A stretch of DNA of 64,000 nucleotides from Faecalibacterium sp. I3-3-89 (GTDB lineage: Bacteria > Bacillota > Clostridia > Oscillospirales > Ruminococcaceae), in NCBI RefSeq assembly GCF_023347275.1, contig NZ_CP094468.1:1922001-1986000 (forward strand), read 5' to 3'. The notes beneath the pieces were generated by a model. That model was not told the DNA's origin. It made no database searches and was given only the letters and a program-made list of their open reading frames with translations. The position numbers were made by a program, and so were the translations under genes. This document shows positions 15,033-19,308 of this stretch, piece by piece. Position 1 is the stretch's first letter; each line of letters begins with the position of its first letter.

Positions 15033-15064
15033 TTTGCGAAACCGGTAGATTTCGTCCCTCTCGT

Positions 15065-15158
15065 GTAACCAAACTGTAGCCTTTTTCACATTATTTTCAA
15101 AAATTAAGGGTAAATTAAAAAAAGTCCTCTTGAAGAAATGGCGTATTTGTGTTACACT
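15065..15158 (+). promoter_or_regulatory. mam1 promoter with conserved 65-bp upstream block
   Basis: -35 TTGAAG (15130-15135), 17-bp spacer, -10 TACACT (15153-15158). The 65 bp before the -35 box align without a gap to the block before the transporter promoter (15973-16037), with about 54 identical positions, including CCAAACTG, TTTTTCACAT, TTTTCAAAA and GTCCTC. AT-rich, so it may be an UP element and/or a regulator site. Confidence 0.8.
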
Positions 15159-15165
15159 ACATCCA

Positions 15166-15380
15166 AGCTGTAATGGCTTTTTTGGAGATTCTGGCGTTTT
15201 TGCCCCAGCCGAGCGGCTGTGAGGGGCAGGCGGCAGCGTATTTTCCACGCATTTTTTCTACTTTTTCCCTGTTTTGGCTGTTTTCTTGGCCGTTTGGCCT
15301 TGTGGCAGATGGGGAAGTATGGTAAAATGTAGTAGAGGTGTCTCCAAAAAGGCACTACAGCCCACTTAACTCGTGATGTT
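15166..15380 (+). other. Long 5' leader of mam1, with a possible second promoter
   Basis: Transcription from 15165 would give an untranslated leader of about 310 bases. It contains a CAGCCG/CGGCTG hairpin (about 15208-15221). A second candidate promoter TTGTGG - 17 bp - TAAAAT lies at about 15299-15327, which would shorten the leader to about 145 bases. No open frame with a ribosome site is apparent. Confidence 0.4.
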
Positions 15381-15381
15381 G

Positions 15382-15428
15382 CCGAGTGCGCACTCGGTTA
15401 CATAGGTTTTCCCGGTTGCGCAACCGGG
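15382..15428 (+). promoter_or_regulatory. Paired TGCGCA-loop hairpins in the mam1 leader
   Basis: Hairpin 1 is the palindrome CCGAGTGCGCACTCGG (15382-15397). Hairpin 2 is CCCGGTTGCGCAACCGGG (15411-15428). Both expose the hexaloop TGCGCA, which is self-complementary. They are 13 bases apart (TTACATAGG..) and 49 bases before the start codon. The leader of mam2 has the same arrangement with different stem sequences. Confidence 0.85.
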
Positions 15429-15477
15429 AGGAGACCGATCATATTCGTTTTTTTTCATTTGAAGGGAGTAATTCATT

Positions 15478-15882
15478 ATGATGATGCCTGCAAACTTCTC
15501 TGCTGTCAACGCAGAGGTCGTCTACGGCGGTGCCGTGGCCGATTACCTGCCCAACGCTTGGACTGCTGCTAACGTGAAGCAGTTCTCCACCAATGTCATC
15601 ACTCTGGTCAGCAACAGCTTCCAGGAGGGTATTATCAACGCAACTCTGGGCACCATGTTCGGTGGTAACTGGGGCGGCGACGACGGCCTCAAGCTGTTCG
15701 GCTCTGACGGCACCCTGAAGACTTGGCTGTACGGCGCTGACGCTGGCGATATGTCCTTCCTGAACAAGACCATGCGTACTCTGGGTCTGGCTTCTTTCGT
15801 CTACACTCTGGGCACCGCATCTGCTAAGGTCGGCTTCGAGAAGAATCCCGCCAATTTCCCCGTCACTATCAAAAAGATCTGA
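15478..15882 (+). CDS. MAM-like secreted protein 1 (double-glycine leader)
   Basis: 134 residues, start ATGATGATG behind GAAGGGAG. The sequence opens MMMPANFSAVNAEVVYGG, an 18-residue leader ending in the Gly-Gly that C39 peptidases cut after. The mature part (about 116 residues) has WTAANVKQFSTNVITLVSNSF, NWGGDDGLKLFG and a C-terminal TLGLASFVYTLGTASAK. Length, the MMMPAN start and the NVK.F.TN..TLV core match the microbial anti-inflammatory molecule of Faecalibacterium prausnitzii as I remember it. It is 60-70 % similar by eye to the second copy at 18782. The transporter between them is the likely exporter. Confidence 0.85.
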   Translation: MMMPANFSAVNAEVVYGGAVADYLPNAWTAANVKQFSTNVITLVSNSFQEGIINATLGTMFGGNWGGDDGLKLFGSDGTLKTWLYGADAGDMSFLNKTMRTLGLASFVYTLGTASAKVGFEKNPANFPVTIKKI

Positions 15883-15920
15883 TCGAGCTGTAATTGTTTT
15901 ATCATTCTGCACGATCTGTA

Positions 15921-15960
15921 AAAAAGCGCGGCGGACTTTCGCGGTCCGCCGCGCTTTTTG
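15921..15960 (+). terminator. Terminator of mam1
   Basis: GCGCGGCGGAC (15926-15936) pairs with GTCCGCCGCGC (15944-15954), flanked by A5 and T5. Confidence 0.9.
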
Positions 15961-15972
15961 TGCATTTCTTTT

Positions 15973-16066
15973 GTTACCAAACTGAGACTTTTTTCACATT
16001 TTTTTCAAAATTTAAGGGTTTATTAAAAATTGTCCTCTTGAACAAGCCGACAGAATGTGTTATACT
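15973..16066 (+). promoter_or_regulatory. Transporter (PCAT) promoter with the same conserved block
   Basis: -35 TTGAAC (16038-16043), 17-bp spacer, -10 TATACT (16061-16066). The preceding 65 bp (15973-16037) match the mam1 promoter region. The distance from block start to -35 is identical in both, so the two units are probably co-regulated. Confidence 0.8.
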
Positions 16067-16330
16067 ATGCCTAAGGTTCAGGAGATGATACGTCAAAATA
16101 CCTTCTCCGGGCCGACCAAAATGATCAAAGGGTAGGCGCTCCCTTCTTTTGATAGCAGCTGCTCTCTGCTCCGCTTGGCCGCAGGGCGGGGCGAGGCAGA
16201 GAGCTGTATGCTGCTTTTATCGGGAAGTGTGTAAGGCGCAGCAGTCAGAAGCCCTTTCTTCTTCGCCAAACCGTCCGTCCGCCAGCTGGCGCAGGGGCGT
16301 TTTGAGATAGAAACCAAAAAGGAAGCATCT
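16067..16330 (+). other. 5' leader of the transporter gene
   Basis: About 255 untranslated bases. A stem can form between AGCTGCTCTCTGC (about 16146-16158) and GCAGAGAGCT (about 16196-16205), enclosing GC-rich DNA. A GGCGCTCCC/GGG-type pairing is possible upstream. The TGCGCA hairpins of the mam leaders are absent here. The leader ends in AAAGGAAG before the ATG. Confidence 0.4.
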
Positions 16331-18667
16331 ATGCGTTATACCTACGTCCGGCAGCACGACACTACGGACTGCGCTGCCGCCTGTCTCGCAATGGTGTGCC
16401 TCCATTACAAAAAGGAGATCACCATCACCCGCCTGCGGGACATGATGGGTACGGACCTGAAAGGCACAAACCTGACCGGTCTGCAGAAGGCCGCGGAGGA
16501 GCTGGGGTTCAGCACCGCCGCCGTCCGCGTAGACCGCGAAAATTTCCTCAGTGAGTTTTCCGTCCCCTGCATCGCGCAGGTCATCACCGACGAGGGCCTC
16601 GCCCATTTCGTGACCGTCTTTAAAAAGACGACCATCAAGGACGACGGCGAGCGCCGGCGGCACGTCCTCAAGGAAGAGGAGGCACGGAAAAAATGCGCCG
16701 ACGAGGGGAAGAAGTTCAAGTGTCGGGATTACGTCATCATCGGCGACCCGGCAAAAGAGCTGAAGAAGATCTCCCTCGATGAGTTCTATAAGAACTTTAC
16801 CGGCGTCCTGCTCCTGCTGACCCCCACCTCGGAGTTCAAGGCAGGCAAGCAGGAGCATGGCAGTATGGTCAAGCGTTTCCTCGACCTGCTGCTCCCCCAG
16901 AAAAAGCTATTCTTCTACGCCATCCTCAGCTCGGTCATCATGACAGTTCTGGGAATCGCATCCTCGATGTTCAACAAGATATTGATGGATGAGATCCTCC
17001 CCTACGGTCTGAAGAGTCTGCTGATCTCGATGATTCTGGTGTTCAGCTTAGTCAGCGTCACCAGCGCCCTCATCAGCATGGTGCGGCAGTGGGTGCTCAT
17101 CTATCTGTCCATCAAGATCGACATCCCGCTGATGCTGGGCTACTTCGGGCACGTCTTCAAGCTGCCCATGAAGTTCTTCGCCACCCGCAAGACCGGCGAA
17201 ATTACGACCCGCTACTCCGACGCCAGCACCATCAAATCGGTGTTCACCAGCATCGCACTGAGCGTTGCGATGGATATTGTGATGGCCTGCGTTACCGGCG
17301 TCATCCTCTTCCGGATGAATGCCACCCTTTTCTCCATCTCCATCTTCACCACCCTGCTGAGCATCCTGCTCGTCTTCATCTTCAAGCAGCCCTTCAAGCG
17401 GATCAACGAAGAGACGATGCAGCAGTCGGCCATCCTGAACAGCCAGATGATCGAAAGTCTGCGCGGCATCGAGACGGTCAAGTGCAATGCAGAGGAAGAC
17501 CGGGAGCTGGAAGCTCTGGAACGGGAGTACATCAAGAGCCTGAAGATAAGCCTGCGCTCCAGCAAGATCAGCACGGTGCAGTCCCTTATCTCCACCCTCA
17601 TCACCACCATCCTCGGCATGGTAACGTCCTACGTCGGTATCATGCAGGTGCTGAATGGTGAGATGACGCTGGGCAGCTATATGGCGTTCAGCACCCTTTC
17701 CTCTTACTTTACTTCTCCGGTCAGCGAGCTGGTCAGCCTGCAGATGTCCATCCAGCAGGCACAGATCTCCATCAAGCGTCTGACCGAGATCATGGATTAC
17801 GAGTCCGAGCAGGACGAGACCCGGGAATACACCGAGATGGAAAAGATCGACGGTGATATTGAGTTCAAGGATGTCTCCTTCCGCTACGGCAGCCGTTCTC
17901 CGGCCCTGAGCCACGTCTCCTTCACCATCCCCTATGGCAAGAAGGTGGCCCTCGTGGGCAGCAGCGGCAGCGGCAAATCCACCATCACCAAGCTTCTGCT
18001 CAAGTATTATGAGCCGGAGGAGGGTTCCATCAGCGTGGGCGGTGTCCCGCTGGACGAGTACAGCAATGCCTCTGTCCGCCGCGCCATCGCCTATGTCCCC
18101 CAGAACGTCGAGCTGTTCAGCAAGACCATCTACGACAACATCCGCATTTCCCGACCGGAGGCCAGCCTCGATGAGGTCAAGGCTGCTGCCAAAAAGGCAG
18201 ATGCCCACGAGTTCATCCGGAAGCTGCCGCTGCAGTACAACACCTACCTCGAGGAAGCCGGCAACGGCCTCTCGGGCGGCGAGAAGCAGCGCTTAGCATT
18301 GGCCCGGGCCTTCCTGAAGGATGCGAACCTCTATATCTTGGACGAATCCACCAGTAGTCTGGACTTTGGCACAGAGAATACCATCTTTGATATGATCTAC
18401 AACCAGCTTGCAGACCGCTCGATGCTGATCGTCGCCCACCGCCTCTCGACCATCCGGGATTGTGACCTCATTCTGGTCATGGATCACGGCGAGATCGTGG
18501 AGCGGGGCACTCACGAAGAGCTGCTGGCAAAACAGGGCAAGTACTACGAGCTTTGGAGCCTGCAGCAGGGCATTTTCCGCAACAAGAAAAAAGCGGAACA
18601 GCCCGCACCTGCCGCCGCCGCGAAAGTGGTGGAGGACGAGGACGATGGCGAGTCCATCACCTACTAA
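16331..18667 (+). CDS. Peptidase-containing ABC transporter (PCAT), presumed MAM exporter
   Basis: 778 residues. N-terminal C39 cysteine peptidase: QHDTTDCAAACLAMV with Cys14, GLAHFV with His92 and IGDP with Asp139. A charged insert (about 98-132, KKTTIKDDGERRR...KCADEGKKFKC) separates His and Asp. Six membrane helices span about 190-470. The ATPase has GSSGSGKST (Walker A), LSGGEKQR (signature), ILDEST (Walker B) and the H-loop AHRLST. An acidic, alanine/proline-rich tail extends past the usual end. PCATs cut double-glycine leaders and export the cargo in one step. The two flanking MAM-like proteins carry such leaders. Confidence 0.93.
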   Translation: MRYTYVRQHDTTDCAAACLAMVCLHYKKEITITRLRDMMGTDLKGTNLTGLQKAAEELGFSTAAVRVDRENFLSEFSVPCIAQVITDEGLAHFVTVFKKTTIKDDGERRRHVLKEEEARKKCADEGKKFKCRDYVIIGDPAKELKKISLDEFYKNFTGVLLLLTPTSEFKAGKQEHGSMVKRFLDLLLPQKKLFFYAILSSVIMTVLGIASSMFNKILMDEILPYGLKSLLISMILVFSLVSVTSALISMVRQWVLIYLSIKIDIPLMLGYFGHVFKLPMKFFATRKTGEITTRYSDASTIKSVFTSIALSVAMDIVMACVTGVILFRMNATLFSISIFTTLLSILLVFIFKQPFKRINEETMQQSAILNSQMIESLRGIETVKCNAEEDRELEALEREYIKSLKISLRSSKISTVQSLISTLITTILGMVTSYVGIMQVLNGEMTLGSYMAFSTLSSYFTSPVSELVSLQMSIQQAQISIKRLTEIMDYESEQDETREYTEMEKIDGDIEFKDVSFRYGSRSPALSHVSFTIPYGKKVALVGSSGSGKSTITKLLLKYYEPEEGSISVGGVPLDEYSNASVRRAIAYVPQNVELFSKTIYDNIRISRPEASLDEVKAAAKKADAHEFIRKLPLQYNTYLEEAGNGLSGGEKQRLALARAFLKDANLYILDESTSSLDFGTENTIFDMIYNQLADRSMLIVAHRLSTIRDCDLILVMDHGEIVERGTHEELLAKQGKYYELWSLQQGIFRNKKKAEQPAPAAAAKVVEDEDDGESITY

Positions 18668-18677
18668 TTCGTTGCAG

Positions 18678-18732
18678 CCGCGTGCGCACGCGGTTACATA
18701 AATGGCTTTCTTTCCGGATGCGCATCTGGGAA
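18678..18732 (+). promoter_or_regulatory. Paired TGCGCA-loop hairpins in the mam2 leader
   Basis: Hairpin 1 is CCGCGTGCGCACGCGG (18678-18693). Hairpin 2 is TTTCCGGA-TGCGCA-TCTGGGAA (18711-18732, eight pairs of which two are G-U). The spacer again begins TTACATA. The distance from hairpin 2 to the ATG is 49 bases, exactly as in mam1, and the last 29 bases before the ATG are identical. No separate promoter is visible, so the leader probably lies on the transporter transcript. Confidence 0.85.
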
Positions 18733-18781
18733 CTGGGCCGACTAAATTTGTTTTTCATTCATTTGAAGGGAGTAATTCATT

Positions 18782-19189
18782 ATGATGATGCCTGCAAACT
18801 TTACTGCTGTTAACTCTGAGGTCGTCTACGGCGGCGCTGACCTGTTCTCCGTTCTGGCTGACACCACCGCTCCTATCTGGAACGCTGCTAACGTCAAGCA
18901 GTTCAACACCAACGTGATCACTCTGGTCAGCAACTCTTTCCAGTCTATCTTCACCGAAAAGGTTCTGGGCACCATGTTCAGCGGCAACTGGGGCGGCGAC
19001 GACGGCGTCAAGCTGTTCGGCGACGAGGGCACCCTGAAGCTGGCTCTGTACGGCGATGACGACATGGGCTTCGGCAACAAGGTCATGCGTACTCTGGGTC
19101 TGGCTTCTGTCGTCTACACCCTGGGCACCGCTCCTGCCAAGATCGACTTCAACGACGGCGTCGCCTCTTTCGATGCTAAGCTGAAGTAA
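18782..19189 (+). CDS. MAM-like secreted protein 2 (double-glycine leader)
   Basis: 135 residues. Leader MMMPANFTAVNSEVVYGG, then ADLFSVLADTTAPIWNAANV and FNTNVITLVSNSFQ. The TAPIW..NVK.FNTN..TLV stretch is closer than mam1 to the remembered F. prausnitzii MAM sequence. The C-terminus is TLGLASVVYTLGTAPAK. After export the mature protein would have about 117 residues, much longer than a bacteriocin and without cysteines. It directly follows the transporter and ends in two strong terminators. Confidence 0.87.
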   Translation: MMMPANFTAVNSEVVYGGADLFSVLADTTAPIWNAANVKQFNTNVITLVSNSFQSIFTEKVLGTMFSGNWGGDDGVKLFGDEGTLKLALYGDDDMGFGNKVMRTLGLASVVYTLGTAPAKIDFNDGVASFDAKLK

Positions 19190-19245: not shown

Positions 19246-19264
19246 TGACAATGCCTCGTAATGG

Positions 19265-19308
19265 TATGCCCGGAGGCACCTGCCTCCGGGCATATCTTAT
19301 TTTTTTAT
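19265..19308 (+). terminator. Terminator of mam2 / transporter unit
   Basis: ATGCCCGGAGGCA (19266-19278) pairs with TGCCTCCGGGCAT (19281-19293), then ATCTTATTTTTTT. Confidence 0.85.

Follow-up and report, generated by a model that had tools for sequence, protein, structure and literature searches.

A twin-hairpin RNA element with invariant palindromic loops at the head of mam messages in Faecalibacterium

Introduction

Why should two mam genes of one genome each be headed by two hairpins that expose the same self-complementary hexaloop, TGCGCA, on stems of different sequence, and what might such a leader do for the message? The question arises in a stretch of 64,000 nucleotides of Faecalibacterium sp. 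I3-3-89 (contig NZ_CP094468.1, forward-strand positions 1,922,001 to 1,986,000; hereafter the window), whose closest named relatives are Faecalibacterium records, placing it in a Faecalibacterium genome. Here mam1, PCAT (the gene of a peptidase-containing ABC exporter) and mam2 follow one another on the + strand. PCAT adjoins mam (PMC8836110) and is the proposed exporter of MAM, which is reported as the second most abundant protein of the proteome and the most abundant envelope protein (PMC12184118). The twin hairpins prove to be a structure that the sense strand forms as RNA at the start of mam messages and that has been conserved, and below we weigh what they may do there.

Twin hairpins in the two mam leaders

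The window's genome is coded G000 and individual loci are coded L with a number; element coordinates refer to the whole stretch, + strand. The four TGCGCA hexaloops on differing stems stand where the original prediction had placed them, with the letters it gave. Hairpin 1 has the core CCGAG-TGCGCA-CTCGG (15382-15397) in the mam1 leader and CCGCG-TGCGCA-CGCGG (18678-18693) in the mam2 leader, and hairpin 2 has CCCGGT-TGCGCA-ACCGGG (15411-15428) and TCCGGA-TGCGCA-TCTGGG(A) (18713-18731), respectively. The full structures exceed these tops, hairpin 1 being longer and hairpin 2 gaining a second, lower stem. A distance of 49 bases from hairpin 2 to the ATG, claimed for both genes, is right for mam1, while for mam2 we count 50-51.

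The twin hairpins in both leaders are real and no accident. Of the 37 copies of TGCGCA in the window, just 3 sit on a perfect Watson-Crick stem of at least 4 pairs, all within the mam leaders; the fourth hairpin (hairpin 2 of mam2) has a G-T pair and so falls outside this count. First-order Markov resamplings of the window gave 0.175 TGCGCA hairpins of that kind per 64 kb, and none of 200 resamplings had two TGCGCA hairpins (stem of at least 3) inside 40 bases. The folding z scores against shuffles (-2.77 for the mam1 leader and -1.67 for that of mam2) are less telling than the hairpin count.

Copies of the element among relatives

By protein search, 25 of 31 genomes in the genus have mam, and so do 2 of 197 sampled family genomes, these two being the window's own and another of the same genus. 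In the loci obtained, the 180 bases 5′ of each mam gene were inspected, identical stretches being kept once (L021 is identical to L016). TGCGCA was present twice in 19 mam leaders, and an RNA covariance model (R1) added a twentieth, in G205, where the protein search had missed the mam gene; mam is therefore present in at least 26 of the 31 genomes. Complete twin-hairpin leaders thus number 20 in 18 Faecalibacterium genomes, the window's two included, and both TGCGCA loops are kept in every one of the 20.

Three alignments were made, with 19 leaders in A1, 19 in A2 and 20 in A3. Left out of A2 and A3 were the truncated leader L005 and its presumed other half L064 (both from G208), together with L056 and L057, which are relics of hairpin 1. 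R1 was built from A2, which contains both window copies, so its scores there are not independent, and its hits on its own training rows are no proof; L043 (from G205), L056, L057 and L064 are strong R1 hits outside the model. The assembly of G208 is interrupted within the second hairpin of its mam1 leader, and L005 opens with an inverted copy of an arm, as fold-back of a palindrome would give. This break is probably an assembly artefact, and from the matching context we infer that L064 is the missing half of the leader. All or part of the element is present in 21 of 30 distinct-gene MMMPAN-type leaders, the partial one being this contig-end case.

Only a single gene family was found to carry the element within the genus. 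Searched at E ≤ 1, with 150 of 1224 first-look candidates scored, the window's own genome yields nothing beyond the two leaders and their antisense images. A family search with stricter filters gave weak matches in 4 of the 197 genomes (E 0.0015 to 0.072 per genome, about the chance level over that many). None of these four loci contains GTGCGCAC; we treated them as chance and find no credible copy outside the genus among the 197 sampled family genomes. Weak matches within the genus (G213, G220, G212, G223 and others), of which only L058, L059, L060 and L061 were inspected, were also treated as chance.

Structure and covariation

The element is about 70 nt long. Hairpin 1 is built of seven pairs, with an invariant G-C innermost, followed in most leaders by a C-A mismatch and then by TG/CA, which is invariant. 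In hairpin 2 about four pairs form the upper stem and about seven the lower one, with a variable internal region, in many cases rich in G and A, between the two. The stretch TTACAT 3′ of hairpin 1 is invariant in complete leaders. The linker between the hairpins measures 2-6 nt in 19 of the 20 leaders and 7 in one, and loop 2 lies 51 to 61 bases from the ATG. Invariant columns number 26 of 74 and include both loops, the closing G-C of hairpin 1 and TTACAT. RNAfold often closes the outer U-A of the loop, leaving GCGC.

The stems vary and stay paired. In a plain MAFFT alignment of 19 leaders, which is not fitted to the structure, 92.9% of 354 cells are paired, against 31-46% when the partners are slid; in a model-fitted alignment of 20 leaders it is 93.9% of 379 cells, against 31-48%. 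Changes on both sides are seen in 11 of the 20 pairs in either alignment. These compensating changes, with the loops kept throughout, bear out the proposal of a conserved, covarying RNA element tied to mam. We also compared the pairs with a tree-aware null, our own R-scape-style simulation that preserves the tree and the substitutions. Pairs 11-20 and 10-21 of hairpin 1 rank first and second of 2556 pairs in the fitted alignment (E 0.01 and 0.06); in the plain alignment they have E 0.000 and 0.067 of 2415 pairs, only 11-20 passing E 0.05. The covariation that the original prediction had named as its test is thus present. The helix sum of hairpin 1, 61.3, was reached in 0 of 100 and 0 of 400 simulations (0 of 500 in total). 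For hairpin 2 the sum is 35.8; at least one of the first 100 simulations went above it (maximum 37.7) and 0 of 400 did so in the second run (maximum 25.2), and after correction none of its pairs is significant singly (best E 8.7 of 2556). A measure of further pair types was not above shuffles, 305 and 285 of 500 being as high in the plain and the fitted alignment. A long-range pairing of AAATG in the linker with CATTT ahead of the Shine-Dalgarno region, seen by eye, was dropped; it is missing in L001, L002, L019 and L024.

G-U accounts for 43 cells and A-C for 3, and a further 20 cells are unpaired in other ways. The excess of G-U over A-C shows that the folding strand is the sense strand of mam, in the form of RNA. 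This count also bears on whether the same letters act as DNA, either as a dyad operator for a transcription factor or as a dispersed palindromic repeat of a mobile kind or like the repetitive extragenic palindromes. Hairpin 1 is indeed a perfect DNA palindrome in most leaders. Yet the half-sites vary while the pairing persists, the palindrome of hairpin 2 is imperfect over the lower stem in most leaders, and at E ≤ 1, among the candidates scored, the own genome shows none of the further copies that a dispersed repeat would have. A DNA-level feature is the least probable of the readings that we considered.

Genomic place of the element

PCAT is present in 26 genomes, and in 18 of these mam lies directly behind it; the full element stands at all 18 junctions. 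The first pair of hairpin 1 is 2-10 nt past the PCAT stop in all of them (2-3 nt in 15 of the 18, and 5 nt in the window). A second mam gene lies ahead of PCAT in three genomes (G000, G171 and G208), with the full element in the first two, the G208 contig ending inside hairpin 2. Stand-alone mam genes (9 in 8 genomes) have no TGCGCA in the preceding 180 nt, and none of the 9 MTFPANY paralogues seen carries the element. The element was seen at the PCAT-mam junction and at the extra mam ahead of PCAT. The original prediction, which had proposed it as specific to MAM genes, is borne out in that the element is tied to mam, but the element is not general to these genes.

Six of the eight genomes with stand-alone mam have nothing element-like behind PCAT. 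The other two, G221 and G222 (loci L056 and L057), keep hairpin 1 there, with TTACAT or TTACAC, a shrunken ribosome site and a short reading frame, while mam and hairpin 2 are gone; this is probably the remnant of a lost mam. The stand-alone leaders (L011, L013, L015, L023 and others) are short and open with small hairpins of other sequence, such as GAGCCGG-AAACA-CCGGTTC (seen by eye, one of them folded), so hairpins at the 5′ end may be a general trait of mam leaders, including those without the element. In nine genomes (L006-L010, L014, L017, L020 and L022) an MTFPANY gene lies as a third paralogue 36-44 nt past the mam stop.

Transcription of mam

Promoters were scored on the sigma-70 consensus alone, other promoter types lying outside the score, and compared with 200 shuffles. 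At all 18 PCAT-mam junctions the best sigma-70-like score is 6-7, which is no better than shuffles (59 to 176 of 200 equal it). A score of 11 is reached by the mam1-type leaders L001 and L002 (1 and 4 of 200 shuffles equal), by the PCAT promoter of the window (1 of 200) and by all eight stand-alone mam promoters scored (1 to 5 of 200). Since the junctions lack the signal that is found elsewhere, the PCAT promoter probably drives the mam gene that follows PCAT. L002 has a TATAAT box that ends 10 nt ahead of the element; a primary 5′ end set by it would fall at nearly the same point, relative to the element, as the published end considered next.

A published 5′ end can be set beside these results. 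From RNA-seq, Auger et al. place the start of mam transcription in F. duncaniae 110 bp before the start codon (PMC8836110). Locus L012, whose MAM is identical over its first 42 residues to the F. duncaniae MAM peptide of PMC12184118, is presumably F. duncaniae. In L012, position -110 is the first base past the PCAT stop, 2 nt ahead of hairpin 1, the comparison resting on ordinary RNA-seq and on a species assigned from those 42 residues. Lying where there is no promoter signal, the end resembles a processed one stopped by hairpin 1.

An intrinsic terminator or attenuator that lowers read-through from PCAT into mam would likewise be made of stable hairpins, and T-rich stretches do lie ahead of the Shine-Dalgarno region. 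The T stretches do not directly follow the stems, however, none of 10 terminator-like sites falls at 15375-15438 or 18671-18741, and the gene downstream makes the most abundant envelope protein (PMC12184118). We hold a terminator to be very improbable.

Features of the window

The coordinates of the element and of its surroundings are collected in Table 1. Neither mam1 promoter candidate was listed by the tool's own promoter scan of the window. The region ahead of mam1 (15062-15170) resembles the PCAT promoter region (15974-16080) in TTCACA, CTTGAA and TACACT/TATACT, as if one had been copied from the other, and the true mam1 start may lie within 15062-15170, which would give a leader of about 300 nt. 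Between the candidate mam1 promoters and the element, at 15165-15367, there is a sub-threshold match to the Rfam family Fungi_SRP (23.3 bits against a gathering score of 65; E 0.0012 in a search of 461 bases), which is probably due to chance.

Table 1. Features of the mam1-PCAT-mam2 region, in positions of the window
Feature	Coordinates	Strand	Remarks
Alternative mam1 promoter candidate, TTGAAG / TACACT	15130-15158		Spotted by eye
Candidate mam1 promoter, GTGGCA / 15 nt / TG-extended TAAAAT	15302..15328	+	Score 11; 1/200 shuffles equal; weak assignment
Twin-hairpin element, mam1 leader	15375..15438	+	R1 covariance-model match, 63 bits, G000:C1:1937375-1937438
mam1 hairpin 1	15377..15402	+	Loop TGCGCA 15387-15392
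mam1 hairpin 2, upper and lower stem	15405..15436	+	Loop TGCGCA 15417-15422
mam1 Shine-Dalgarno region, GAAGGGAG	15461..15468	+	Invariant in A1 (19 leaders)
mam1 coding sequence	15478..15882	+	134 residues
Terminator-like hairpin 3′ of mam1	15940..15953	+	Core of a longer hairpin seen by eye
Promoter-like site ahead of PCAT, TTGAAC / 17 / TATACT	16038..16066	+	Hence also ahead of PCAT-mam2
PCAT, peptidase-containing ABC exporter gene	16331..18667	+	Directly upstream of mam2
Twin-hairpin element between PCAT and mam2	18671..18741	+	R1 match, 70.9 bits, G000:C1:1940671-1940741
mam2 hairpin 1	18673..18698	+	Loop TGCGCA 18683-18688; first pair 5 nt past PCAT stop
mam2 hairpin 2, upper and lower stem	18704..18739	+	Loop TGCGCA 18719-18724
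mam2 Shine-Dalgarno region, GAAGGGAG	18765..18772	+
mam2 coding sequence	18782..19189	+	135 residues
Terminator-like hairpin 3′ of mam2	19263..19296	+

Discussion

On the reading that we favour, and to which we give about an even chance, the element acts in cis to form the mature 5′ end of the mam mRNA and makes this mRNA stable and abundant independently of PCAT upstream, the invariant loops adding a contact of their own. PCAT and mam would be transcribed together, and the transcript would be cut, or trimmed from its 5′ side, to the base of hairpin 1 just past the PCAT stop. The two hairpins would then block 5′-to-3′ decay of the mam part while the remainder is lost; in the mam1 type, with a promoter of its own beside the element, they would lie at or near the primary 5′ end. 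The TGCGCA loops may contact the loops of another mam mRNA, or a factor, and the outcome would be a very abundant cargo produced with less exporter. The window's genome codes for RNase Y and for a protein of the RNase J type (TIGR00649). The closest precedent with experimental tests comes from Ruminiclostridium cellulolyticum, likewise a clostridium: a small 5′ stem-loop there lengthened the half-life of a reporter mRNA from 5.3 to 45.3 min (PMC10311766), and stem-loops set unequal amounts from one operon (PMC4423207).

Several points weigh against processing and protection. Auger et al. read -110 as a promoter start with a TATA-like box; in their 'large' promoter type, however, this box lies at about -105, from where it could hardly direct a start at -110 (PMC8836110). 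The same source places PCAT downstream of mam in A2-165, whereas in the L012 genome it is upstream on the same strand, a discrepancy that we read as one of map orientation. The nine stand-alone mam genes manage without the element, and hairpin 1 as kept in G221 and G222 may have a role for the 3′ end of PCAT, or may be only a young relic. Ribosomes terminating at PCAT would cover hairpin 1. Folding energies are mixed when compared with shuffles, five leaders with the element having z scores of -2.77, -1.67, -0.63, -1.85 and -3.78 and a stand-alone leader without it -2.45. Finally, a stabiliser alone needs no invariant loops, so that protection leaves the loops unexplained; the absence of any change in 12 loop columns, among 130 substitutions on 74 columns, has a probability of about 1e-10 under a naive uniform model.

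The loops may instead be the main point of the leader. With two self-complementary hexaloops each, mam messages could join in pairs or chains by kissing, which would affect their stability, translation or place in the cell; we think this unlikely as the purpose of the element. It would account for the same palindrome being held on both loops in all 20 leaders while the stems vary, and the free hexamer duplex is worth -8.3 kcal/mol. In RNAcofold, homodimers in the form of extended duplexes gain about 20 kcal/mol over two monomers, but the program ignores concentration and cannot show kissing, and hairpin 1 with hairpin 2 gives no gain. Six-base, GC-rich, self-complementary kissing loops on hairpins are known from the HIV-1 dimerisation initiation site and from oskar mRNA, in its 3′ untranslated region (PMC7357161); the mam leader, whose dimer is putative, differs in having two such loops, and in a bacterium. 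If complementarity were all that mattered, moreover, the loops could covary as the stems do, and they never change. Two forms of contact that had been put forward fare worse. Kissing of the loops within one leader is unlikely because it would require a long linker: 2-7 nt are present, whereas two full hairpins, when stacked, would by our own estimate have their bases roughly 80 Angstrom apart. Nor can the general purpose be a pairing of mam1 with mam2 messages, since 15 of the 18 genomes with a full junction element showed no second copy and both loops are still kept. A more specific version, and a slightly less likely one, treats the leader as a bivalent RNA glue by which kissing loops, the two of one leader being hardly able to reach each other, would link mam mRNAs into pairs or chains, shielding a message that is among the most abundant in the cell and perhaps gathering it near the PCAT exporter at the membrane.

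A dedicated factor (an RNA-binding protein, a small RNA or a small ligand) that reads both loops and TTACAT, making the leader a regulatory sensor akin to a tandem-hairpin riboswitch, is also doubtful, though it has the best prospects among the alternatives. A factor would require invariance at the level of sequence, and both loops, TTACAT and the G-C that closes hairpin 1 show it. RNAfold pairs part of the Shine-Dalgarno region with letters upstream of it (15440-15477 and 18745-18781 in the window), its mean free probability being 0.18-0.59 in 19 leaders, and this predicted pairing may limit translation. The guanidine-II (mini-ykkC) riboswitch, of the two-hairpin leaders known to us the one most like the mam element, has ACGR tetraloops, against UGCGCA in the mam leaders. 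Its two tandem hairpins are also of similar sequence and have like loops able to kiss (PMC5486947, PMC7544219), but with a linker of 7-40 nt (PMC7544219) against the 2-7 nt seen here. No Rfam family reaches its gathering score in the leaders, sub-threshold matches other than Fungi_SRP having E of at least 0.79, and the guanidine-II model in particular gave no match in the two window leaders at E up to 10. Also against a sensor, mam expression is described as high in both phases of growth and, at the level of transcription, as stable when acetate is low (PMC12184118). In the genus, moreover, we saw the element at one gene family alone.

Processing ahead of a hairpin, as we favour it for mam, has a parallel in cggR-gapA of Bacillus subtilis, where cleavage ahead of one ordinary hairpin leaves a stable downstream mRNA; the likeness lies in the cut and the stable message, the difference in the single ordinary hairpin. 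The cip-cel operon of R. cellulolyticum, also a clostridial host with RNase Y and RNase J, has stem-loops of selective RNA processing and stabilisation (SRPS). These are likewise intercistronic, go with unequal products, and include a small 5′ stem-loop that protects the downstream message (PMC4423207, PMC10311766). Two marks of such sites, a stable stem-loop in the spacer between two genes and a junction without a sigma-70-like promoter signal, are each found at 18 of the 18 PCAT-mam junctions. The cip-cel hairpins, however, are very different from one another at six sites and are mostly cut behind a large stem-loop (IR4 being cut ahead; same sources), whereas the mam element has identical, invariant palindromic loops and an invariant linker stretch throughout the genus, with the putative end ahead of both hairpins. 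We accordingly file it with intercistronic stabilising elements, with unusual twin palindromic loops. In the literature on mam leaders, UGCGCA hairpins and structured RNA in Faecalibacterium, as in Rfam, we found no description of it, in agreement with the original prediction; the candidate tables of PMC8040213, a large microbiome survey whose main text, in the parts covered, leaves F. prausnitzii unnamed, could list it under a number.

MAM is studied for its anti-inflammatory action in a leading human gut commensal, and the cause of its high level is not explained in the parts of PMC12184118 covered here; the element would be a handle on MAM dosage relative to the exporter. It is also a possible expression part for the genus and a natural test case for palindromic kissing loops between bacterial mRNAs, and an RNA glue, if true, would be homotypic mRNA assembly encoded in a bacterial 5′ leader. 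The mam upstream regions, which have been called divergent above the ribosome binding site and read as promoters (PMC8836110), share one structure when viewed as RNA, in 21 of 30 MMMPAN-type leaders (one partial). On the likeliest reading, its hairpins protect the mam message and set the amount of the protein.

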